Source: Methanobacteriota archaeon
Lineage (GTDB): Archaea > Thermoplasmatota > Thermoplasmata > Thermoplasmatales > GCA-001856825
Direction: 5' to 3'
DNA length: 56,828 nucleotides
NCBI GenBank assembly: GCA_017857235.1
Contig: JAFMDN010000006.1
Span: 1-56,828, forward strand
Part shown: piece after piece, positions 41,517 to 56,503 of the stretch
Layout of the letters: every line of letters begins with the position of its first letter
Position numbering within the stretch: position 1 is the first letter of the stretch
Translations under genes and position numbers: made by a program
The notes under the pieces: generated by a model
The model's input: the letters and a program-made list of their open reading frames with translations, nothing else
What the model was told of the DNA's origin: nothing
The model's database searches: none

Positions 41517-42218
41517 ATGCCACAGGAGAATAAAAATCCTGATCTCAGCAGAAGAAATTTCCTTAAGGCAATGGGTGTGCTAGCTGTCGGTGTTGGAGTA
41601 GCTGGCATCCTGAGGGGGGTAGTGATAGACATCATTCCCCCCAATCAAAATGTTGAATCCGGCTACCCCACACTCCAGTTAGCCTTACCTAATGGTAATC
41701 CAGTCCACACAAGTGATCTAATAGTTAATAACCCACAAATAGTCATTTTCAATTATCCTTTGCAAAATGAACCCAACTTTCTTCTTAGGCTAGGTGATAG
41801 CAACAACAATGATGTTGCAGTACAACCCACTGAAGTTACAATTCCAGCAACAGGTGCTAAATTTACTTCCCCGGGAGGAGCAGGTCCTTACAAATCAGTT
41901 GTAGCTTCTTCGGCCATATGCCAGCATCTTGGATGCGTTCCTCCCGAGATTAGATTTCATCCACCAAATGATACCTCCTACCCCGGAAAAATTCATTGCG
42001 ATTGCCATGGAAGTACTTACGATCCCTACCAGGGGTTCAGTGTTGTGACCGGGCCTACTCAGTCTCCCTTGCCCAATGTGAAATTGGTATATGATGCAAC
42101 AAATGATACATATAGTGCAAGCCTGATGATAGGGCCAGTAATTTACGGGAGAACTTCTGACTTGAGTGGAGGAAATCCAATTTCAGGAAATTCAACGGAG
42201 GTCACAACAATATCCTGA
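41517..42218 (+). CDS. Rieske [2Fe-2S] protein, Tat-exported
   Basis: 233 residues. The N terminus SRRNFLK at 11-17 followed by a hydrophobic stretch is a twin-arginine signal-anchor. Cluster box 1 is C135-QH137-LG-C140 and box 2 C161-D-C163-H164-GS, giving two Cys and two His ligands plus the stabilising disulfide pair. It transfers electrons from quinol at cytochrome b to an extracytoplasmic acceptor, here possibly the adjacent cupredoxin. It lies 9 bp after that gene. Confidence 0.95.
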   Translation: MPQENKNPDLSRRNFLKAMGVLAVGVGVAGILRGVVIDIIPPNQNVESGYPTLQLALPNGNPVHTSDLIVNNPQIVIFNYPLQNEPNFLLRLGDSNNNDVAVQPTEVTIPATGAKFTSPGGAGPYKSVVASSAICQHLGCVPPEIRFHPPNDTSYPGKIHCDCHGSTYDPYQGFSVVTGPTQSPLPNVKLVYDATNDTYSASLMIGPVIYGRTSDLSGGNPISGNSTEVTTIS

Positions 42219-42229
42219 GAGGTATAAAT

Positions 42230-43831
42230 ATGAATGAAGAAAAATCACTAATTGAAAAAATAATGAATGAACCACAGCCAATACCTAGAAAAGTCCCCGA
42301 CTACATGAGAAAAAAAGGGGGGATATGGTATTGGACTGGCGCGATGATAATGATAACGTTCTTCTATGAAGTAATAACAGGAGTGATATTGCTATTTTAT
42401 TATCAGCCTTCTAATGCTTATAATAGCACAATTTCATTTCTGACCCAACCATTTGGAACCATAATTTTGACCACCCATCTCTATGGTGCTTATCTGATGA
42501 TAGCCTTTGTCTATATCCACTTGTTGAGAAACTTGTTTGTTGGGTCCTATAAGAAACCAAGAGGATCCCAGTGGCTGACTGGAGTATTGTTATTAATTTT
42601 AACAGTAGCCGCAGGATATTTCGGATATTCATTGACCGGAGACGTCCTTTCAGCAGATGCAACAGATGTTGGAAGAGGAATTGCGGCTGCTACCCCGTTT
42701 ATAGGTAGCTATTTGGAATTTATATTCTTTGGTGCTGGAACATCTATAGAGTTGTTCCAGAGGTTGGAAGCCTGGCATATTATTATAGCCGGTACCATAT
42801 TTTTACTATTTGCCATACATTTCTACATGGCTGAATACAATACCATAATGCCAGATCCAAAAGAAGCAAATTACAAGGCACCTTTAATAGATAAAGATGA
42901 TAAAAACTACAAACCCTGGTATCCGTACAACTTTATGTACATGATGCAGATTGCATTTTCTACCCTTGCTTTAATTTTGATAATACCTTCAGCTTTTGCC
43001 CTTATACCTAATATTCCGCCTTTGCTATCTCCATTTCCGCAAGTTTCACCCACAAGTCCTTTGGCTTCACAAGTCCCGCCTTACCCCCCATGGTTCCTTT
43101 TGTTTGTTTATAAAGAATTGGATTTTCAATTTGCCTCAGTTATAGGGCCCTTCTGGGCAGTTGCAATATTTACTGGAATGCCATTAATATACCTATTTCT
43201 TATTCCACTAATAGACAGAAACAATGACTTGAAACCATCAAGGAGGCCACTCATTATAGCAACTGGAATTGTAGGAATTTTTTATTACGTTGCCTTATCT
43301 ATTTGGGGAGCATTCAGGCCAGGAGTTCCTGTTCCTAATTCCTTAGCGCTGATATTCTTCGTTATACCTTTAGTGATTATGGTGCCTCTTATCTATTATC
43401 TTGCTGGAAACTTTGAGAAAGAGAAGTATAAGAATCCCAATGCTTGGAAGATCATGGCCCTGGTTTCTATTGCAGGATTCTTTGGATTCCTTAGCGGCAT
43501 GTCGATTTATTCATTAATATCGACAGGTTCTGCTCTTTCCTTAGGTGAAACTGTTGCTTCTTTGGTTTTCCTGGCATTAACAATACTGGCAATATATGCA
43601 GTATACGGAGGAGTAAAAATAAACAAAAATCCAATCAGGATGACAGGAACTGGCTATACTGTATTTGGAGCTGTTTATGGACTTCTAGCTGTTTGGATTT
43701 TCACAATGATTAGCTTCATACCTATGACAAGCACAAGGGATCAGGCTATGATAGGCATAGGTCTTGGAATAATTTTCTTCATTTCAGCAGTATTGACAAA
43801 GATTTACAGAGCTTATGCATATGGAGAGTAG
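42230..43831 (+). CDS. Cytochrome b of a bc1/b6f-like complex
   Basis: A 533-residue polytopic subunit. Four haem ligands occur as H83/H97 (TTHLYGAYLMIAFVYIHLLR) and H183/H197 (AWHIIIAGTIFLLFAIHFYM), each 14 apart. The ef-loop motif normally PEWY reads P286-P-W-F289, so the Glu and Tyr of the quinol-oxidation site are both changed. The C-terminal ~180 residues carry extra helices beyond the core. It follows the Rieske gene by 11 bp. Confidence 0.95.
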   Translation: MNEEKSLIEKIMNEPQPIPRKVPDYMRKKGGIWYWTGAMIMITFFYEVITGVILLFYYQPSNAYNSTISFLTQPFGTIILTTHLYGAYLMIAFVYIHLLRNLFVGSYKKPRGSQWLTGVLLLILTVAAGYFGYSLTGDVLSADATDVGRGIAAATPFIGSYLEFIFFGAGTSIELFQRLEAWHIIIAGTIFLLFAIHFYMAEYNTIMPDPKEANYKAPLIDKDDKNYKPWYPYNFMYMMQIAFSTLALILIIPSAFALIPNIPPLLSPFPQVSPTSPLASQVPPYPPWFLLFVYKELDFQFASVIGPFWAVAIFTGMPLIYLFLIPLIDRNNDLKPSRRPLIIATGIVGIFYYVALSIWGAFRPGVPVPNSLALIFFVIPLVIMVPLIYYLAGNFEKEKYKNPNAWKIMALVSIAGFFGFLSGMSIYSLISTGSALSLGETVASLVFLALTILAIYAVYGGVKINKNPIRMTGTGYTVFGAVYGLLAVWIFTMISFIPMTSTRDQAMIGIGLGIIFFISAVLTKIYRAYAYGE

Positions 43832-45272
43832 TATCAAAAAATCCAATTTTATTCAATTCATTTCTTATTTTTTATTTAATTTATATGTTATTTATGGTTT
43901 AATAAGTGGATATATTTTAGTAACTTCAGATGCTCTAATTCCATTTGTTTTGGCTTTATTAACTGTTGACTCATTGTTTGCATTGGCCATAATATTCAAC
44001 AGGAAAGTAATTTCTCTGTATGTAAGGGGCTTATTCATATTTCTATTGGCTGTTATAGCATTGATGGTACAGGATTTGATTTCAGTAACAGCTGCATTCG
44101 TTTTCATTCCCTTAATTTCATATAGTATAAAATTGGATAATTTTGAGCATTATAAAAGCAAGCTAATTTCTGAAATTTTGGTTATTTTATTTATGGGAAC
44201 TATAGGTAAAATGTACCTTTTAATAACACAGCCATCTCCCGCGGCAATAACCATTGAGTATCTTCCCGACAAGATGTCTGCAATTGGACTACCTACGCCT
44301 ATTACTGAATATTATGGACTTTTTATAACTACTGCCCATGGGGATATTTTAATAGGGCCTTTAGTGTTTTTTGTAATATTTGCTGCCACTGTCTTATTAG
44401 TTGAAAATTACCATCTCATAATTCCACTTTACGTTAAATCTCTTAGAGGGAGTAATAAGATTATGGGAGGGATAGTATCAAGCGGATATGGCGTAGTTGC
44501 TGCGATGAGTTGCCAGTGTGAGAGTGCTATCGCTCTGCTTCCCGCTGTCGCAATTCTTTTACTGAATATTCTCTTGATACCATTTTTTATATTAAGTGTC
44601 ACATTGCTCGCATTTACATATCTCTTCATAATAAAATATTATAATTCTGGAAGACCTAGCTTAATTGTAAAGCCCATAAAAATGAAAACGGAGTTCATAG
44701 TGGCCATCGTTTTATTGCTTATAGTACAGGGACTTTTACCTTTAATACTTTTTTTAAAAGAATATGATAATATTATATATTTCTTCATATACGGAATGGC
44801 TATGATTTTATCAGGATTCCTATTCGGTGATCCTCTAGCAAAGTCCTTTAAGGCAAAATTAAACAAGGTCATAATTTTCATCCTGTTTATTTTATCACTT
44901 ATTAATTCATTGATCTGGTTCTTTCCCTACTTTACCCTCTACGCTTATGAAAACCCCCTCAATTATTCCATAATGTCATATTCCATGTTCCTTTCTGGTT
45001 TTTTGATCGGTATGGTATATGAAGTGGCAGGTGAACATTTAGGAGTATTCTTCCTTGAAGTCTTTTCAGTAGCATTGGGAATAATTCCCATAATTCTCTA
45101 TTACTATGCTTTCACTGTTGGGGTAAGAATATGGAAATTCTGGTCTCTGAATGATCAGATTATCATAAGTTTAATTCTCTGGATAATAATGCTTCCTATA
45201 ATGTGGATTATAACTCAAAAAAGCTTATATGAGGCTTCTAAAAGACTCTTTATTACTTCTTATAAACTTTGA
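43815..45272 (+). CDS. Polytopic membrane protein of the cytochrome b cluster
   Basis: 485 residues with about thirteen hydrophobic segments. A Cys pair C233-x-C235 (SGYGVVAAMSCQCESAIALL) lies at the edge of a helix, and His occurs in TAHGDILIG. Its start overlaps cytochrome b by 17 bp, indicating co-translation. No family is recognised; an assembly or electron-transfer accessory role is suggested only by position. It overlaps tatC (convergent) by 20 bp. Confidence 0.75.
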   Translation: MHMESSIKKSNFIQFISYFLFNLYVIYGLISGYILVTSDALIPFVLALLTVDSLFALAIIFNRKVISLYVRGLFIFLLAVIALMVQDLISVTAAFVFIPLISYSIKLDNFEHYKSKLISEILVILFMGTIGKMYLLITQPSPAAITIEYLPDKMSAIGLPTPITEYYGLFITTAHGDILIGPLVFFVIFAATVLLVENYHLIIPLYVKSLRGSNKIMGGIVSSGYGVVAAMSCQCESAIALLPAVAILLLNILLIPFFILSVTLLAFTYLFIIKYYNSGRPSLIVKPIKMKTEFIVAIVLLLIVQGLLPLILFLKEYDNIIYFFIYGMAMILSGFLFGDPLAKSFKAKLNKVIIFILFILSLINSLIWFFPYFTLYAYENPLNYSIMSYSMFLSGFLIGMVYEVAGEHLGVFFLEVFSVALGIIPIILYYYAFTVGVRIWKFWSLNDQIIISLILWIIMLPIMWIITQKSLYEASKRLFITSYKL

Positions 45273-46050
45273 AAGCTATAAGAGCTCCAATAAAATAGAG
45301 AGTCAATATTACCGTTGCTATAGTAACTTCCATTACTCCTCCTGTTGCTCCGGGAGAAATCAATAAAGCGATGAAAAAAGCACCTATCACTGCATACCTC
45401 CAATTTCTGAACCATACCTCTGGCTTTACTATTTTAAAATAAGAAAGTAGAATTATCACAACTGGTGTCTCAAATGATAATCCTATTCCAATTGAAAGCA
45501 TTAAGATGATACTAATAAAGTTCTTTATTCCCATAGTTGGTTCAACGTTCAAGCTCCTTGATAGAACAAGTATAACTTTAAAAAGTAGCGGAAGTACTAC
45601 CATTATTGAAAAAGCAACACCAATAATAAATAGGGCAATTATCGCAATAGGTGCTAAAATTATGGCCTTCCTCTCCTTTGGGTATAATGCAGGAAGTGAG
45701 AATTTTATTATTTGATAAATCATTAAAGGAATAGTTATAGCCGCTGATATAGAAATGGAGGTGTATGCAATTGTAACAACTGTATCAAATGGACTAATAT
45801 TTATCAAAATAAATCCGGGAGGTACAAGCCTTTTTTCAATGAGGTCGATAACTTTTATGGATATGGAACTATAAAAATCTGGGAATGGATAATACAGTTT
45901 AATCCCATATATTACAGTTTGTTTGAAACCGAATAGAAATGTTAAGAAGAAAATGGCTATGAATAATATTATGCTTGATCTTAATCTACCGATTAATTCA
46001 TCCAAGTATTCTAGAAACTTCCTCGGATTTTCTGGGTTATCTTGTGTCAT
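45253..46050 (-). CDS. tatC: Sec-independent protein translocase TatC
   Basis: A 265-residue receptor for twin-arginine signals with six helices. The N-terminal region FLEYLDELIGRLRSSI matches the family (HLxELRxR type), and the periplasmic loop has PFDTVVTIAYTSI. YPKERKAI precedes helix 3, and FETPVVIILLSYFKIV is typical. With tatA at 39764 it brackets the Rieske/cytochrome b genes. A TATA-like box near 46087-46097 would give a short leader. Confidence 0.94.
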   Translation of the reverse strand: MTQDNPENPRKFLEYLDELIGRLRSSIILFIAIFFLTFLFGFKQTVIYGIKLYYPFPDFYSSISIKVIDLIEKRLVPPGFILINISPFDTVVTIAYTSISISAAITIPLMIYQIIKFSLPALYPKERKAIILAPIAIIALFIIGVAFSIMVVLPLLFKVILVLSRSLNVEPTMGIKNFISIILMLSIGIGLSFETPVVIILLSYFKIVKPEVWFRNWRYAVIGAFFIALLISPGATGGVMEVTIATVILTLYFIGALIAFKVYKK

Positions 46051-46165: not shown

Positions 46166-46786
46166 ATGGGAAATCTAATAATAGCCCTTGATGTAGAAGA
46201 CCCAGAAAATGCTTTGAATATAACCAAGAGTGCCATAGGTCTGGCAGATTATGTGAAAGTAGGATACCCATTAATTCTCAATAGTGGGTTGTCAATAGTA
46301 AGCAAAATTTCTAAAATGGTACCGGTAATAGTTGATTTGAAAATTGCAGATATACCTGATGTTTCTTTCAATATAGCAAATAAAATCATGAGTTATGGTG
46401 CTGCCGGGTTTATAGCTCATGGCTTTGTTGGGAAGGATGTGTTAGAAAGGTTAAGGGTTATAAAGGGAGAGATGTATGTAGTGGCAGAAATGAGCCATCC
46501 AGGAAGCCTTGATTTCATTACTCCTGTCTCAGAGAAAATAGCGCTAATGGCAAGGGAGATCGGGGCAGATGGTCTTGTCGCCCCAGCAACAAGGCCAGAA
46601 AGGATTAAAAGATTAAAGGATATCAGCAAATTGAAGATTATTTCCCCAGGGGTTGGAGCACAGGGAGGTTCGCCCTCGGAAGCCATAAAATGGGGGGCTG
46701 ATTATATTATTGTAGGACGCTCCATTACGAGTAGTAGTAATCCGAAAGAAGCTATATTAAAGTTATTGAATGAGATGAAGCATTAA
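46166..46786 (+). CDS. pyrF: Orotidine 5'-phosphate decarboxylase
   Basis: 206 residues. LIIALDVEDPENAL at the N terminus, the catalytic DLKIADIPD, and the phosphate-binding SPGVGAQGG and YIIVGRSIT. It makes UMP. The gene ends at the first base of the aconitase-X gene, so the three genes 46166-48736 form a tight unit although the pathways differ. The start region repeats AATGGGAAAT at 46147-46156 and 46165-46174; the first copy reads M-G-N-stop. Confidence 0.96.
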   Translation: MGNLIIALDVEDPENALNITKSAIGLADYVKVGYPLILNSGLSIVSKISKMVPVIVDLKIADIPDVSFNIANKIMSYGAAGFIAHGFVGKDVLERLRVIKGEMYVVAEMSHPGSLDFITPVSEKIALMAREIGADGLVAPATRPERIKRLKDISKLKIISPGVGAQGGSPSEAIKWGADYIIVGRSITSSSNPKEAILKLLNEMKH

Positions 46787-47970
46787 TGTTTCTCACCAAA
46801 GATGAGGAAAAGATATTCGATGGAGAGATGGGGGAAGCACAAGCAATTGCCATTAGATTACTGGTATCGATAGGCGAGATAAATGGAGCCGACAGTTTAA
46901 TACCAATAAAATCTGCTCATATTTCCGGTGTTTCTTACAAAAACATAGGTGACGGAGGTTTGAAGTTTCTTAAAAAGATAGCTGACAAAGTAAAAGTTCC
47001 AACAACGTTAAACCCCTTGGGTTTCGATATGGAAAGAAACGGTCCAGTAGAGGTTGACAGGGATTTTAAAGAAAAACAAATGGAAATTATCAAGACTTTC
47101 ATGTCCATGGGCATAAAGGAAAGCTTCACTTGCACCCCATATTATTTTTACCAAAAAACCAGTTATGGGGATCATGTGGCATGGGCCGAGAGTTCCGCCC
47201 TGATCTATGCAAACTCCATTATTGGGGCAAGAACAAACAGGGAAGGCGGGCCATCTGCATTGGCGGCAGCCATAATAGGCAAAACTCCAAATTTTGGATT
47301 ACACTTAGATAAAAACAGGGTTGCAGATTACGAAGTTGAAGTTAATGGAAAATTGGATTATTCCGGTGCAGCAGCCCTTGGTTTGTATTTAGGTACAAAT
47401 TACCCTGGAAAGATTCCCAGGCTAGTTGGTTTTAATTATTTGAGGGATTTCGAGTTGAAAGCTTTTGGAGCAGCCCTGGCAGCATCTTCTGCCACCAGCA
47501 TGTTCCATGTTGAAAATAGAACCCCTGATGATACGCTTAATAGAGGTAAGAAATTTGAGAGAATAGAAATTGATTACAATCAGCTCAAAAATTTGATGGA
47601 AGAAAAATCAAGCAGTGAAAAACCAGAACTCATAGCCATAGGTTGCCCACACCTCAGCAAGGATGAAATTGACTACATAGCTTCTCTTGTCAAAGGCAAA
47701 AAGAAGGATAAAGATGTTGAGGTATTTTTGTTTGCGTCAAGAGAAACAATTAAAAACTCATTTGAGTCGGTAAAAATTATTGAGGAATTCGGAGCTAAAG
47801 TCTTTGCTGACACATGCATGGTTGTAGCACCTCTTAGCAAGAAATATCATAAAACAGCTATAAACTCAGGAAAAGCCTCCTTCTATTTGCCCATGAAGGA
47901 ATATGGTGGTCAGGAAATAATATTTAGAAACTTCAATGACTTATTGAGGTGGGCCGTAGTTGATTATTAA
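46786..47970 (+). CDS. Aconitase X large subunit (phosphomevalonate dehydratase-type)
   Basis: 394 residues of the AcnX (COG1679-like) family. Three Cys that can hold the iron-sulfur cluster are C116 (ESFTCTPYY), C287 (IGCPHLS) and C344 (ADTCMVVAP). Archaeal two-subunit members dehydrate mevalonate 5-phosphate to trans-anhydromevalonate phosphate in the archaeal mevalonate route; bacterial relatives act on cis-3-hydroxy-proline. Which applies here cannot be settled by eye. It overlaps the small-subunit/Nudix gene by 11 bp. Confidence 0.88.
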   Translation: MFLTKDEEKIFDGEMGEAQAIAIRLLVSIGEINGADSLIPIKSAHISGVSYKNIGDGGLKFLKKIADKVKVPTTLNPLGFDMERNGPVEVDRDFKEKQMEIIKTFMSMGIKESFTCTPYYFYQKTSYGDHVAWAESSALIYANSIIGARTNREGGPSALAAAIIGKTPNFGLHLDKNRVADYEVEVNGKLDYSGAAALGLYLGTNYPGKIPRLVGFNYLRDFELKAFGAALAASSATSMFHVENRTPDDTLNRGKKFERIEIDYNQLKNLMEEKSSSEKPELIAIGCPHLSKDEIDYIASLVKGKKKDKDVEVFLFASRETIKNSFESVKIIEEFGAKVFADTCMVVAPLSKKYHKTAINSGKASFYLPMKEYGGQEIIFRNFNDLLRWAVVDY

Positions 47971-48736
47971 TGGTAGAGGTATTTCACCCGGAGTAGCCAA
48001 AGGGAAAATTGCCCTTTGTGATGACTATGTATCCCCCCTAGGAGAGATGGGTAAAGATGGAAGAATAAAATCAGGTAAATGTGAAGACTTAGAGTTCAAA
48101 GGAAAAATTTTCTCCTTTAGAGGGGGAAGAGGATCAACCGTTGGGTCTTATGTACTTTTAGAACTGAAAGAAAATTTAACTTCGCCCATAGGAATAATAA
48201 ATGAAAAAGCTGAACTTGTAGTTTTAACAGGTGCCATTATCTCAGGAATCCCTATGATTGATGGCATTCCCTTGAACATTCTGAAGAACGACGATGATGC
48301 AATAATTGATGGTAAATCTGGAAGATTGGAGCTCTTGAATGTTACTCAAAAAGATGTATCCACAGTTTATCTCTTTCACGGTGATAGACTTCTGGTATTG
48401 CACAGGTCCGATAAAGTATCTTCCTATCAAAATCAATTCAGCGCAATATCAGGGCACATAGAAGAAGGTGAAACTCCTGAGGAAGCTGGCAGGAGGGAAG
48501 TACTCGAAGAAACGGGAATACAGGATATAGAAATCGAGAAGACAGGAAAGCCATTCCCTGTTAGATGGGAAAATATCGTATACATGGTACATCCTATACT
48601 CGCTCGGACTAAATCTGATAAAGTTAACCTTAACTGGGAAAACCAGGAATTCAGATGGATACATATAGATGAGCTAGGTAAATTAAATACTGTTCCTAGA
48701 TTAAAAGAAGCCTTGGAAGAATTAATGAAATTATAA
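47960..48736 (+). CDS. Aconitase X small (swivel) subunit fused to a Nudix hydrolase
   Basis: 258 residues. Residues 1-~127 are the AcnX swivel domain (NGRGISPGVAKGKIAL; FRGGRGSTVGSYVLLEL with the conserved Ser; LTGAIISGIPMIDG). Residues ~132-258 are a complete Nudix domain: the box G165-x5-E171-x7-R179-E-V-L-E-E-T-G-I187 matches GX5EX7REUXEEXGU exactly. Small subunits are normally ~130-140 residues, so the Nudix part is an addition. It is not the type I isopentenyl diphosphate isomerase, which has a diverged box. Substrate is unknown; hydrolysis of an isoprenoid diphosphate or nucleotide is a guess. GTG or TTG-type start: the frame begins at TTG 47960, inside the large-subunit gene. Confidence 0.85.
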   Translation: MIINGRGISPGVAKGKIALCDDYVSPLGEMGKDGRIKSGKCEDLEFKGKIFSFRGGRGSTVGSYVLLELKENLTSPIGIINEKAELVVLTGAIISGIPMIDGIPLNILKNDDDAIIDGKSGRLELLNVTQKDVSTVYLFHGDRLLVLHRSDKVSSYQNQFSAISGHIEEGETPEEAGRREVLEETGIQDIEIEKTGKPFPVRWENIVYMVHPILARTKSDKVNLNWENQEFRWIHIDELGKLNTVPRLKEALEELMKL

Positions 48737-50791
48737 ATAAGATTTAATTGAATCCATGTTTAAACCGCATTTTGTACATATCTCTCCTTCCATATTGGAA
48801 TTACACAGTGGACATGAACTGTATTTAATATTCTTAACATACTTCTTTAGATTTTCTAATATAATGTCTTGACTTATATTAGATTTAGCTTCACCGTTTA
48901 TTAGTTGAGTTATGTCATGAACTCCTTCTAGAATTAACCTATCCAGCTCTTCCCTTGTTTCTGTTCCAATTAATTTCTTAATAGCAGACCTCAGCTCATT
49001 TATGTGAACCTTTCTAATTTTGAATTCTTTGTCATTGGTTACTTTCAAAGCCTTTGTCGTTTCTTTTATGAAATCAATGTAATTAAATGAGGTTTCATCA
49101 CATTTCGAAAAATCTGCCCATATGTCAATATAGTCGTTGTATTTCAATCCCATTTTCTTTCTTGTGAAATTAACCTTTCTTACGATTTTTTGTATTTCCC
49201 TTGAGCATTCATCGACTACGGTATTCAAATAAAATTCTCCCCCCATGAAGTTCCTCTTAATATAACCATCAGGTAATGTGGGTATTACATCGATCATTTC
49301 TCTAGTAATTTTAATCTCTTGACCATCAATGCCTATGGAATATCCGCCTGAGTTTATTTTCTTCAGTACATCTTGTCCATCTTTTTTACTTAATATAATT
49401 TTGATAGATGAATAATAGGACTTGTAGTATTTACCAAGCTTTTCAGGATTTGGCTGAACTTTGAATTTTAGTCCGTGCCAAACACCTTTTATTACAATAA
49501 GTTCATCTACATTTAACAATGATTTTAATTTACTTGTTTGTGGCATTTTGAAATCGGTGCTTATGATTAAATTTTTGTACCTAACTCCCCTACCATGTGT
49601 TTTGCTTTTTGCTCTTTCCACCTCATTGAAAAGGCTCAAAAATGCTCGCAAATCAAAATCATAATTGATTGAATAATTAGGTAATTTTAATTTAGACCCG
49701 TCAACAAATAATCCATAAAAAAGATCTCTGAAATCATTTGCGGCACTTAGGTGGAAATTTCCTGTCCTCTTACTGCCATTTAGGAATATGCGGTTAAAAA
49801 TTCTGTAGTTATTAATTAGAGTCCTCAATGCTTTAGAGATGTCCCCTTTCAAAATGTATTCAATAACTTCATTTTGAGTCTCACTAAAAAAGCTTTTTGA
49901 TTCAATGTAAAATATCTCGTCACTGCTGTATTTTTTAGGCCTATTTAAAAAAGAAAAGGATCTATAAACTCTTGTGGACAACCTTATCAATTCTGGGTCA
50001 GGAGGCCTTATTTTTATTATTTCAGCCCCAATTTTGTCAAGCTTTTTCAAATTAATATTTTTAGAAAATATGTAAATTTTTTCTGCTTTTGTGATTTCTT
50101 TTGACAATATTATTTTTCCATAGTCATTCAAAAGAAGGAGAGTGTCCTTCATCTTCCCAATTTCAACATTATCATAGTACACCTTGTTTGCTATAACTTT
50201 GTTTACCTCACCTGCACAGTACGGGCATTTAAATTGAGGTGACTGATAATTTATTACTTCCTCACTGAAATCTGAAAAGAAAAGAATTTCCCTAATCTGT
50301 TTGCCTGTTACAATTTCAATAGATTTTGGGTTTACTGTAACTCCTTTTTTCAAAAAATCCTTTATCTTGTCAAAAGATGCCTGATCCATATAAATGGAAA
50401 TATTGGGGAGATCCCATTTTACCCATCTATCTGGAATCCTGACAGTTGATTCAAATGGCAAGATTATCAAAATATTCTGGATCTTCACTATTCTTAAAAT
50501 TATTGATGTCTTGATAAATAATTTAGAGAGTTCATTGCTATTAAAATACATGTTACATTTCGTGCATTTAAATATGTAATCTGTGCGTAGGGTTATCTTG
50601 TTACCAATTAATTCTTGGATCTTCTCCAATATGGTATCTTGATCTATCAAATTATTATCTAGAATTAAAGGGAAATTATAACCCCCATGTGACACTGCTA
50701 TTGAAACATCTCCAAGAATAGCCTTAATTGGTGTTTCTAGGAATCTATTTTTTCCTTCCTGATAGCTCTCTATGTAAATGAGGGTCTTCAC
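48731..50791 (-). CDS. IleRS-like protein lacking the catalytic domain, with zinc sites
   Basis: 686 residues. Residues ~265-600 follow the order of the IleRS anticodon-binding and C-terminal region: compare SREIQKIVRKVNFTRKKMGL here with AREIIRRIQSMRKDLNL in the true IleRS of this window. No HIGH or KMSKS motif exists. The first ~260 residues are not assigned but hold CTKC (76-79) and CPYC (189-192), a likely zinc site; the tail has CPLC...CTKCG. A role in tRNA binding or regulation is plausible. GTG 50791 is the start. It overlaps the Nudix-fusion gene end by 6 bp (convergent). Confidence 0.7.
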   Translation of the reverse strand: MKTLIYIESYQEGKNRFLETPIKAILGDVSIAVSHGGYNFPLILDNNLIDQDTILEKIQELIGNKITLRTDYIFKCTKCNMYFNSNELSKLFIKTSIILRIVKIQNILIILPFESTVRIPDRWVKWDLPNISIYMDQASFDKIKDFLKKGVTVNPKSIEIVTGKQIREILFFSDFSEEVINYQSPQFKCPYCAGEVNKVIANKVYYDNVEIGKMKDTLLLLNDYGKIILSKEITKAEKIYIFSKNINLKKLDKIGAEIIKIRPPDPELIRLSTRVYRSFSFLNRPKKYSSDEIFYIESKSFFSETQNEVIEYILKGDISKALRTLINNYRIFNRIFLNGSKRTGNFHLSAANDFRDLFYGLFVDGSKLKLPNYSINYDFDLRAFLSLFNEVERAKSKTHGRGVRYKNLIISTDFKMPQTSKLKSLLNVDELIVIKGVWHGLKFKVQPNPEKLGKYYKSYYSSIKIILSKKDGQDVLKKINSGGYSIGIDGQEIKITREMIDVIPTLPDGYIKRNFMGGEFYLNTVVDECSREIQKIVRKVNFTRKKMGLKYNDYIDIWADFSKCDETSFNYIDFIKETTKALKVTNDKEFKIRKVHINELRSAIKKLIGTETREELDRLILEGVHDITQLINGEAKSNISQDIILENLKKYVKNIKYSSCPLCNSNMEGEICTKCGLNMDSIKSYL

Positions 50792-52467: not shown

Positions 52468-53442
52468 ACGAAATGCATAATTTGTGGAAAGGAGACTAAA
52501 AATAAGGAGGTAATCTGTGAGGAATGCCGTTCAAAGTCCCCGAATACAAATGAGTTAAGGGTAGAGGATTTTAAAATTAAAAGGTGTAAGTACTGCGGAA
52601 GAGTATTTACCGACAGATGGTCAGATAGAGATATACAGGAAGAAGAATTGATTGACATTTATCTAAAAAGACATTTTGGAAACGGTGATATAGACTATGA
52701 ATCATCAGGAGACTATTTTAACAGAAAAGTCAAATATGAATTCAGGCACTCTAACGGGCAAATAAGTAAAGGTGAGTTTTTCATAAAAACCTCTTATCAC
52801 AGCTGCCCTAGTTGTTCCAAAAAGAGGGGAAATTATTTCGAAGCCATAATTCAATTGAGGGGAACACATGAAAAATTTATTGAAATTATTGACTTTGTTA
52901 AGGATACTATTGATTCCCAAAAGAATCCTGAAATATTCATAACCAAAGTAGAAAAGAAAAAAGAAGGTTATGACTTATACATTTCCAATAAAGAATATGC
53001 TAAAAATATGAGCAAAAGGATAATTGATAAATATGGAGGCACCATTATCGAAAGCAATAGTCTTGTTGGCAGGAAAGAGGGGAGAGATCTTTATAGATTT
53101 ACCTACGCGGTGCGGATTCCTGAATTTTCATATCTAGACTTGATAAAATTTAATGGTAGGAATTGGGTAGTTTCAGGGATTCATGGCAACGACATTTCAT
53201 TGATAGAATTGGGTACTAACAATTTAAGGCATTTTAAATTAAACGATGTTGAAGATTCAAAAATACTACTAAGGAAGGAAGATTATAAAAAGGCAGAAGT
53301 TTTATATACGCAAGGAGAAACAACTTACATTATAAATCCTTTCAATTATAAAGAAGTGGCAATAAAAAAGATTGATAATGTAGAATCAATTTTGGTTGGA
53401 AACTTGAATGGTGAGATCGTTATCATTCCATTTTTGCAATAG
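52468..53442 (+). CDS. NMD3-like ribosome export/maturation protein, apparent ACG start
   Basis: The frame reads T/M-K-CIICGKETKNKEVICEECRS at its beginning: the N-terminal zinc fingers of NMD3, with a second pair CKYCGR (~residue 35) and CPSC later. A stop lies at 52459-52461, and no ATG, GTG or TTG occurs between it and the first Cys codon; ACG at 52468 sits exactly where the family has its Met. The first standard start, TTG 52648, would lose the first four-Cys zinc finger and CKYC. The product is ~324 residues. Archaeal NMD3 is thought to act in 50S maturation. It overlaps ileS (convergent) by 20 bp. Confidence 0.8.
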   Translation, partial: TKCIICGKETKNKEVICEECRSKSPNTNELRVEDFKIKRCKYCGRVFTDRWSDRDIQEEELIDIYLKRHFGNGDIDYESSGDYFNRKVKYEFRHSNGQISKGEFFIKTSYHSCPSCSKKRGNYFEAIIQLRGTHEKFIEIIDFVKDTIDSQKNPEIFITKVEKKKEGYDLYISNKEYAKNMSKRIIDKYGGTIIESNSLVGRKEGRDLYRFTYAVRIPEFSYLDLIKFNGRNWVVSGIHGNDISLIELGTNNLRHFKLNDVEDSKILLRKEDYKKAEVLYTQGETTYIINPFNYKEVAIKKIDNVESILVGNLNGEIVIIPFLQ

Positions 53443-56400
53443 TTATTTTAAGCTTTAATTCATCTATTTCCCATTCCTTCGTATAACCTTTCAAGTTATC
53501 CTTAAATTTGGATAGGGTTGATTCTTCTATGGAATTCTTATAGTTTTTATATGCTTCAAGCAAGTCTTTGTCACCTTGTATATCTAGAAATATTTTATCT
53601 GTGTAATCAAGGTTCAAATCTTTTCTCATGCTTTGAATTCTTCTTATGATTTCTCTTGCTAATCCCTCAAGATATAGGTCCCTATCAAATTCAGAAGATA
53701 TGAAAATCGGTATGTTGAGCGATAAATCGGAAATATATCCTTCCTTAACATTCTCTTCCACAATTGCATCAGACTTTGTCACTGTCTTATCTAGTATGAC
53801 TGCTTCACCTTTCCGATCAAGTTCTGCCTGCATTTCAGGATCTAATATTTCTCTTTCAGCTTCCTGGAGATCCTTACCGAATATCTTTCCTACTTTCTTC
53901 CTATCAAGTTTGTAAGTTCTTTCCTTATATTTGGCAGGATCTTCGACTTTCACTTCCTTGGCATTTAATTCCTTTAGAAGTAAATCCTTGTACTTATTAA
54001 CTAAAGGTTCTAGGGATTTGTCTCCCACTACAACCTCTCTAACTGGCCTTCTTAAAGATATTCCATTTAATTGCCTTATGCGCCTTGATATTTCTACTAT
54101 GTTTCTTACATCTTGCATTTCTTTTACCAAAATTTCATCATATTTTTCTTCTCCTGGCTCTGGCAACAGATCCATGTGAACACTGTACTTACCGGTTAAT
54201 TTCTTATATAGGTATTCTGAGAAATATGGGGCAAAAGGTGCAAGCATTTTTGAAATTACTTCCAGTGTTCTATAAGCAACAAAATATGCGGACCTCTTGT
54301 CTTCATCCACTGTCTCCTTCCAGAATCTATCCCTGCTGAGTCTCAAATACCATTGAGAAAATTCATCAACCAATTTCTCGATTTCCTCCAATCCTCTGTG
54401 TGGTTCGTAATTATCCATGTACTTTATGTAATTGATTAAAGCTTGATTAGTCCTCGATTCCATCCACCTATCGAGATAATTAATTATCTTTTCCTCCTTA
54501 GGTACCCACTTATCCAAATTTGCATTTGTGGATATTAAGACGTACGAGTTGTATAAAGTCCCCAAAAGTTTTCTCGAATATTCCTGTGCTATTTCATTAG
54601 AGAACCTTTTCGGTTTCCACGGAGGTCCCTGGAAAAAGAATAACCTTAAGGAATCAGCACCTATTTGATCCATAATTACCTTTGGGTCTACAACGTCACC
54701 TTTTGACTTACTCATTTTTTCTCCTTTAGAATTTAAAATGAATTCCATGACTACAACGTTTTTAAATGATATATTTTCGAATAGCAGTGATGAAATAACA
54801 TGAAGGCTGTAAAACCATCCTCTGGTTTGGTCTATGGCCTCGCTTATGAAATCAATTGGGTAGTTTTCCTTGAATAAATCCTGACCCTCAAATGGATAGT
54901 GGTATTGAGCATAAAATGCTGATCCTGAGTCAAACCATGTATCTATGGGGTAAGGTTCACGTTTCATAAATTCACCACATTTATCACATTTTACTTTTAT
55001 ATTGTCAACATAAGGCTTGTGAAGTTCAAAATTGGGCGGAATCTCAATTGCCCTATCCAGCAGTTCCTTCTTGCTCCCTGGAATAAAAATATGGCCATTT
55101 TGGCAGGTCCATACGGGTAGGGGGGTGCCCCAGAACCTGTTCCTAGATAATGCCCAATCTTTTCCCTCCTCTAGAAAATTTCCAAATCTCCCGTCTCTTA
55201 TGTACTCCGGCTTCCAGTTGATTTTTTTATTTAGATTAACTATTAGATCCTTCTTCTTCGAAACACCTATATACCATGACTCCACTGGATAATATATTAA
55301 TTTGGTTCCGCACCTCCAGCAGTGTGGATAAGAGTGGACAATCTTTTCCCTTTTGAATAGCTTACCCTCTTTCTTTAAAAATTCTATTATTTTCTCATTG
55401 GCTTCATTTACATCCATACCCTTCCACGGAGATTCTAAATTTATTTTTCCATCCTCTGCTACAGTTACATATAGCTCACCGTTTTCCTTCTTCAATATAT
55501 TATAGTCGTCAGAACCGAAGGCCGGAGCAATGTGCACTATACCTGATCCATCTTCCTTTGAAACAAAATCCGCTGTAACTACATATAAGCCCTTTTTAAT
55601 TTTAAGATAAGGAAGGAGCTGCTCATATTCCCAATTCCTAAATTCTGAACCCTTCTTCTTATCTAGAACTTCGTATTCTTTACCCTTTAATATGGCAGGG
55701 GCCCTTTCTTCCAGTAACCAAAACTTCTTCCCTTCCAAATTAATCAAAACGTAATCAAATTGTGGATTTACAGCTAGGAAAGTATTTGCAGGCAAGGTCC
55801 ATGGGGTTGTTGTCCATACTAGAAAATACTCTTCCTTATCCTTCAATTTGAATAACACATAAATTGAATAATCTTCAATATCCTTGTAACCCTGGGCTAC
55901 TTCATGTGCGCTTAAAGTTGTCCCACATCTTGGACAATAAGGAGAAATCCTAAAATCCTTAAAAAGAAGACCATTTTCATACAATTTCTTCAACGCCCAC
56001 CATTCCGACTCAATATATTCATCATTCATGGTAACATAAGCATGTTCATAATCGACCCAAAAACCCAATCTCTTGGATACACTTTCCCATTCCTTTACAT
56101 ACTTGAATACACTTTCCTTGCAAAGTTTATTAAATTTTTCCACTCCAAATTCTTCAATTTCTTTTTTGGATTTTATTCCAAGTGTTTTTTCCACTTCAAT
56201 TTCTACGGGGAGGCCATGGCAATCCCAGCCTGCCCTCCTTGGGAATATATAATAACCTCTCATACTTTTGTATCTTAAAACCAGATCCTTGATGGCCCTG
56301 GTTTCAGCATGACCTATATGGGGTGGCCCGTTGGCTGTAGGAGGGCCTTCAAGAAAGGAAAATTTTTGATTTCCTTTATTTTTGTCCAAAACCTTATGCA

Positions 56401-56503
56401 ACATGTCTTCGCTATTCCAGAATTTCTCTATCTCCCTCTCAATACTAAGTTGGTCATATTTCTGTGGAACCTGTTCAAGCATCATTTGTGATAATGTGCT
56501 CAT
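53423..56503 (-). CDS. ileS: Isoleucyl-tRNA synthetase
   Basis: 1026 residues, class I. The HIGH motif is in GPPHIGHAETRA and KMSKS in GEKMSKSKGDVV. The editing domain has VWTTTPWTLPANT, GSGIVHIAPAFGSDD follows, zinc-type Cys occur in HCWRCG and CDKCGE, and an anticodon-binding and long C-terminal region complete it. TATA-like AATATATGAT ~25 bp upstream suggests a leaderless mRNA. It is the last gene in the window. Confidence 0.97.
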   Translation of the reverse strand: MSTLSQMMLEQVPQKYDQLSIEREIEKFWNSEDMLHKVLDKNKGNQKFSFLEGPPTANGPPHIGHAETRAIKDLVLRYKSMRGYYIFPRRAGWDCHGLPVEIEVEKTLGIKSKKEIEEFGVEKFNKLCKESVFKYVKEWESVSKRLGFWVDYEHAYVTMNDEYIESEWWALKKLYENGLLFKDFRISPYCPRCGTTLSAHEVAQGYKDIEDYSIYVLFKLKDKEEYFLVWTTTPWTLPANTFLAVNPQFDYVLINLEGKKFWLLEERAPAILKGKEYEVLDKKKGSEFRNWEYEQLLPYLKIKKGLYVVTADFVSKEDGSGIVHIAPAFGSDDYNILKKENGELYVTVAEDGKINLESPWKGMDVNEANEKIIEFLKKEGKLFKREKIVHSYPHCWRCGTKLIYYPVESWYIGVSKKKDLIVNLNKKINWKPEYIRDGRFGNFLEEGKDWALSRNRFWGTPLPVWTCQNGHIFIPGSKKELLDRAIEIPPNFELHKPYVDNIKVKCDKCGEFMKREPYPIDTWFDSGSAFYAQYHYPFEGQDLFKENYPIDFISEAIDQTRGWFYSLHVISSLLFENISFKNVVVMEFILNSKGEKMSKSKGDVVDPKVIMDQIGADSLRLFFFQGPPWKPKRFSNEIAQEYSRKLLGTLYNSYVLISTNANLDKWVPKEEKIINYLDRWMESRTNQALINYIKYMDNYEPHRGLEEIEKLVDEFSQWYLRLSRDRFWKETVDEDKRSAYFVAYRTLEVISKMLAPFAPYFSEYLYKKLTGKYSVHMDLLPEPGEEKYDEILVKEMQDVRNIVEISRRIRQLNGISLRRPVREVVVGDKSLEPLVNKYKDLLLKELNAKEVKVEDPAKYKERTYKLDRKKVGKIFGKDLQEAEREILDPEMQAELDRKGEAVILDKTVTKSDAIVEENVKEGYISDLSLNIPIFISSEFDRDLYLEGLAREIIRRIQSMRKDLNLDYTDKIFLDIQGDKDLLEAYKNYKNSIEESTLSKFKDNLKGYTKEWEIDELKLKITIAKME

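Follow-up and report, generated by a model that had tools for sequence, protein, structure and literature searches.

A Nudix domain fused to the small subunit of a probable phosphomevalonate dehydratase in Thermoplasmata appears to be a passenger with a job of its own

The closest described counterparts of the locus studied in this work are the archaeal phosphomevalonate dehydratases (PMDh) of AcnX type IIb from Thermococcus kodakarensis (TK1248/TK1249, PDB 7cnr; TkAcnX) and Aeropyrum pernix. They have the same large-subunit active site, the small-subunit fold and its catalytic serine loop are likewise conserved, and the genes for the two subunits are adjacent and overlapping. The known archaeal PMDh small subunit, however, comprises about 130 amino acids and ends there, whereas the one encoded in the window, i.e. 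the whole 56,828-nucleotide stretch of DNA that was analysed (Methanobacteriota archaeon, GenBank assembly GCA_017857235.1, contig JAFMDN010000006.1), carries a C-terminal Nudix domain. The features concerned are:

46786-47970 (+): AcnX large subunit (AcnX-L; PMDh type IIb), partner of the fusion protein (Pfam AcnX 4.6e-132; PDB 7cnr_A 1.2e-89)
47960-48736 (+): swivel-Nudix fusion gene, 258 codons encoding 258 amino acids, TTG start
47960-48340 (+): swivel domain, AcnX small subunit, residues 1-127 (PDB 7cnr_B 5.3e-18)
48131-48151 (+): catalytic loop GSTVGSY, swivel residues 58-64; Ser59 aligns with TkAcnX Ser62(S)
48341-48733 (+): Nudix hydrolase domain, residues 128-258 (Pfam NUDIX 3.4e-16, residues 133-253)
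48452-48520 (+): Nudix box GX5EX7REUXEEXGU, residues 165-187, identified in the sequence

The initial annotation had described a complete swivel domain joined to a Nudix domain with a perfect box, and this observation is confirmed: both halves are intact and the joint is real. The gene overlaps the end of the AcnX-L gene, whose stop lies at 47970, by 11 nt. In the encoded protein, Pfam AcnX_swivel_put matches residues 32-100 (1.5e-18), the swivel half aligns with TK1248, the Thermococcus AcnX small subunit, across residues 3-127, and the box (G165-HIEEG-E-TPEEAGR-RE-V-L-EE-T-G-I187) fits the consensus exactly. An AlphaFold2 model of the fusion protein contains two well-formed domains (mean pLDDT 96.9, pTM 0.87), and Foldseek superimposes the modelled swivel on the small subunit in 7cnr with a TM score of 0.92 (normalised by target). 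The junction is almost free of a linker, a strand at residues 122-125 being followed by another at 129-140 in the model. Comparison with a relative from the same genus yielded pN/pS values of 0.08 for the swivel and 0.135 for the Nudix half, that is, purifying selection acts on both. Furthermore, GSTVGSY is invariant among 34 fused proteins and absent from degenerate copies, while in the Nudix box E183 and E184 are invariant and E180 nearly so across the fused proteins. The suggestion of an internal translation start near residue 130 was not borne out: in that region of the window TTG codons occur and no in-frame ATG or GTG was found, and Shine-Dalgarno-like sites ahead of a possible start at the swivel/Nudix junction are present in 12 of 74 relatives and unconserved.

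With residue roles in TkAcnX (cluster, substrate and catalytic) taken from PMC8184944, alignment to 7cnr_A reveals that the cluster cysteines Cys110, Cys283 and Cys342 of the large subunit are all kept (TCTPYY, IGCPH, DTCMVV), as are the substrate residues Gly48-Val49-Ser50, Asn53, Asn79, Glu129, Ser131, Lys361 and Tyr365 (GVSYKN, TTLNP, AESSA, NSGKASFYL). For the small subunit, the alignment with TK1248 shows that Ser62(S), Val64(S) and Leu27(S) are retained within the motifs GSTVGSY and SPLG; the leucine is nearly invariant across the fused proteins. The same genome encodes IPK, a type-II isopentenyl diphosphate (IPP) isomerase (IDI2) and more than one UbiD-family protein, the latter being candidates for anhydromevalonate phosphate decarboxylase. 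The conservation of every TkAcnX active-site residue tested, together with this equipment, leads us to conclude that the AcnX pair is very probably the PMDh of the archaeal mevalonate pathway, a possibility from which the initial annotation had started. A function as cis-3-hydroxyproline dehydratase is ruled out by the residues and by score (1.2e-89 for 7cnr versus about 1e-46). By analogy with its characterized relatives, the N-terminal half of the fusion protein would act as the PMDh swivel that closes the [4Fe-4S] active site in the upstream-encoded large subunit, and Ser59 would be the catalytic residue in the conversion of mevalonate 5-phosphate into trans-anhydromevalonate 5-phosphate.

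The fusion is ancient and widespread across Thermoplasmata. Thirteen other genomes from the family of the window (f1) yielded a match and twelve of them contain a full-length open fusion. The exception is G005, where the reading frame of the Nudix half is broken and indels seem to flank the box (locus L014, 1501-2273); since other genomes of the same genus are intact, this break is either a recent lesion or an assembly error. Families f2 and f3 carry full-length fusions as well, and named relatives with the fusion include Methanomassiliicoccus sp. UBA6, Candidatus Saliniplasma and many Thermoplasmata MAGs. A search for the same fusion in other genomes, as put forward in the initial annotation, retrieved full-length versions from 59 genomes of a phylum-wide sample of 295 (counted by hand from the table), all belonging to the class of the window. 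The class sample (140 genomes of Thermoplasmata including Methanomassiliicoccales) contained AcnX in 98, this Nudix in 96 and both in 83 genomes, counts that depend on genomes most of which are incomplete MAGs. In 71 of these 83, AcnX-L, a gap the size of a swivel (384-503 nt, median 399) and the Nudix sequence are adjacent. Genomes beyond the class encode this Nudix by itself, as a protein of about 133 amino acids at a locus other than that of the swivel. The neighbours of these stand-alone genes, named partly by eye, are a gene for a PIN/KH ATPase, one of Trm5-like type or purQ, and not mevalonate genes. When the Nudix was sought in other archaeal phyla, the sole match in 27 genomes was to a Thermoplasmata MAG; plasmids did not yield any match.

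In a tree of AcnX-L, all fused partners fall within one group and the unfused family f4 is nested inside, so f4 most likely lost the Nudix domain; a marked set of 23 rows spans f1, f3 and f4, and the branch separating the group from other archaea is weak. Family f4 and many fused families share one gene order, namely AcnX-L, swivel(-Nudix) and a convergent IleRS-like gene. In the window, the position of that last gene in relatives is occupied by a 686-amino-acid open reading frame (48731-50791, - strand) with DUF5915, the C-terminal domain of archaeal IleRS, as the sole Pfam match, plus CxxC knuckles. It could represent a divergent paralogue related to IleRS in which no catalytic core is recognisable; an intact IleRS of 1026 amino acids is encoded at 53423-56503. 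On the other side, pyrF for orotidine 5'-phosphate decarboxylase (46166-46786, +) abuts AcnX-L, a linkage confined to family f1 among the loci compared. A 485-amino-acid membrane-like protein without a Pfam match is encoded at 43815-45272 (+), next to genes for a Rieske protein (41517-42218), cytochrome b (42230-43831) and TatC (45253-46050, - strand).

The two halves of the fusion have come apart repeatedly. No AcnX was detected in six f50 genomes, most f7/g33 genomes and g40, all of which retain a Nudix domain whose box is sound, preceded by what is left of a swivel without GSTVGSY. In all of them except G417, a decarboxylase of the mevalonate-phosphate type accompanies a full IPK, the pathway type of each genome being assigned from single family matches. 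This is what a replacement of PMDh by the haloarchaea-type mevalonate route (PMC11052028) would lead one to expect. In G425 (f7/g33) the swivel is decayed, yet an AcnX match resides on another contig; G404 is cut by a contig end and hence is no real exception. At loci L164-L174, L077 and L078, from genomes without AcnX, the swivel has lost the catalytic loop and most of its sequence and is still in frame with an intact Nudix domain.

A second form of uncoupling involves an exchange of the dehydratase itself. Two AcnX clades exist in the class, one of which is used by f13, f16 and f51 and groups with other archaea (L163 and L182 versus the fused loci), which points to an exchange of the dehydratase pair. 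Both f13 and f51 have kept the Nudix of the swivel-Nudix gene, whereas its swivel is decayed or missing: the AcnX of f13 adjoins an unfused swivel of its own while the swivel-Nudix gene retains the Nudix only, and the swivel half is wholly gone in G361 (f51). The paralogues L079/L179 of genome G179 look like a case of duplication-degeneration-complementation, as the copy beside AcnX has preserved its swivel while its Nudix box is ruined (EVVEAALG), and in the second copy, located on a different contig, the swivel has decayed and the Nudix domain is intact. In the Nudix tree, which is based on 136 columns and therefore of limited resolution, rows with decayed swivels nest among fused rows in several places, and well-supported branches force at least three changes. 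The comparison of genomes shows that replacement of the dehydratase goes along with decay of the swivel half and retention of the Nudix half. Conversely, 15 genomes of the class sample possess AcnX without this Nudix. Retention of either partner without the other implies that the two activities are selected independently, which makes it unlikely that the Nudix domain serves solely the chemistry of PMDh, the handling of its by-products or its control.

What the Nudix half acts upon may be approached through its relatives. Profile searches place 3grn, NudI, BdRppH, MutT and Ap4A hydrolases at the top, and Foldseek agrees (NudI, BdRppH, 3grn and Ap4A hydrolases). NCBIfam models for MutT, NudI and dihydroneopterin-triphosphate diphosphatase are matched with scores of about 30 bits at most; every curated cut-off lies far above that, and no specificity motif was recognised in the domain. 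The ranking by profile and fold, the NCBIfam matches and the neighbours of the stand-alone genes speak for a diphosphatase of the nucleotide type that serves a purpose of its own and was fused to allow co-expression.

The reading that accounts best for these data, with a probability of roughly 60%, is that two enzymes, each needed in its own right, became fused long ago, the Nudix domain being a passenger rather than a built-in lipid valve; it is the persistence of an intact Nudix domain even where the partner enzyme has been lost that makes this probable. On the simplest view, a single event close to the root of the class would have joined a stand-alone Nudix gene to that of the swivel. With a divalent metal, the Nudix domain would cleave a nucleoside di- or triphosphate-type metabolite in the manner of MutT and NudI, and it would ride on the swivel for the sake of co-expression, taking no part in the dehydratase reaction or its regulation. 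Several points speak against this reading. The fusion is maintained in many families, although a joint that is purely neutral might be expected to disappear sooner; the presumed substrate derives from distant similarity alone; the patterns of presence and absence come from incomplete MAGs; and lineages devoid of PMDh retain IPK, such that an isoprenoid diphosphate substrate would survive there, too.

The last point leads to the idea, put forward in the initial annotation, of a built-in flux control, according to which the Nudix domain hydrolyses IPP (or dimethylallyl or geranyl diphosphate) to the monophosphate and thereby opposes IPK in a manner tied to PMDh. Fusion and operon linkage with PMDh, the presence of IPK and type-II IDI in the same genome, the persistence of IPK in lineages that replaced PMDh and the existence of plant NUDX1, a MutT-like geranyl-diphosphate hydrolase of the same fold (TM 0.68-0.71 to the Nudix half, lower than for nucleotide diphosphatases), are all in its favour. 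Nevertheless, the idea fares badly with the distribution: the Nudix was kept without AcnX in two lineages and behind a decayed or missing swivel in two more with an AcnX of the other clade, and it is absent from several that keep the dehydratase, among them f4, which has IPK too. Moreover, stand-alone orthologues are not linked with isoprenoid genes, and NudI, MutT and Ap4A hydrolases are closer by profile and fold. IPP may still be the substrate in view of IPK in every genome tested, although precisely this ubiquity means that co-occurrence with IPK does not discriminate. We therefore consider flux control unlikely. A related proposal of a bifunctional isoprenoid enzyme, whose Nudix domain cleaves isopentenyl-type diphosphates in an IPK/Nudix cycle that, as it still runs via isopentenyl phosphate, outlived the exchange of PMDh for a decarboxylase route, appears hardly more convincing and, if anything, slightly less so.

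The nearly rigid junction in the model would be compatible with a sensor, i.e. a Nudix domain that exerts allosteric control over the dehydratase upon binding of a nucleotide-type ligand, comparable to Nudix domains in some transcription regulators. This is improbable, as the catalytic glutamates are almost always conserved, the Nudix domain is retained without AcnX and f4 dropped it yet kept AcnX. Clearance or recycling of a metabolite of the PMDh step, be it a damaged substrate or the inhibitory by-product considered in the initial annotation, would fit with fusion to a PMDh subunit at constant spacing but is very unlikely given intact Nudix domains in f50 and f7/g33, where AcnX was not detected. 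A type I IPP isomerase, suggested by the membership of IDI-1 in the Nudix clan and by a weak TIGR02150 match of one of 14 members, is effectively ruled out by the sequence: the box has the hydrolase form REV..EETG and not the IDI form (PMC5389931), residues 128-258 do not contain any cysteine, and the genome already encodes IDI2. An assembly chimera or frameshift artefact is firmly ruled out by purifying selection on both halves and by the recurrence of the full-length fusion in 59 genomes of the phylum sample and in independent MAGs, G005 alone showing a broken frame.

The initial annotation knew of no enzyme with this arrangement, and our literature search, which covered few subscription journals, likewise found no mention of Nudix together with phosphomevalonate dehydratase, with aconitase X, or with archaea and Methanomassiliicoccales. 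A class-wide domain architecture in a central enzyme of the archaeal mevalonate pathway has apparently gone undescribed, and the way in which the small subunit is annotated in Thermoplasmata and Methanomassiliicoccales consequently needs correcting. The lineages in which the dehydratase was replaced represent natural experiments, one half having decayed and the other having been kept; they illustrate how fused domains can become uncoupled while the gene stays unsplit. The orthologue group of the Nudix domain constitutes a defined target for substrate screening.

Among described Nudix proteins, pyrophosphohydrolases of the MutT/NudI type (MutT-related 3grn from M. mazei, NudI 6dt3, BdRppH 3ees, Ap4A hydrolase 3i7u) have the fold, the box and the metal-binding glutamates in common with the domain studied here, which differs from them in sharing 18-28% identity, in scoring below all curated family cut-offs and in its fusion to an aconitase-type domain. 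The NUDIX/eIF-2B protein HVO_1934 from Haloferax (PMC8576121) likewise unites an archaeal Nudix domain with an unrelated one, the partner being different from the swivel. The plant NUDX1 geranyl diphosphate hydrolases (PDB 6ypf, 5gp0), finally, exemplify the Nudix fold in isoprenoid metabolism and provide the analogy behind the flux idea, but their structural match to the Nudix domain from the window is weaker than those of NudI, 3grn and BdRppH.
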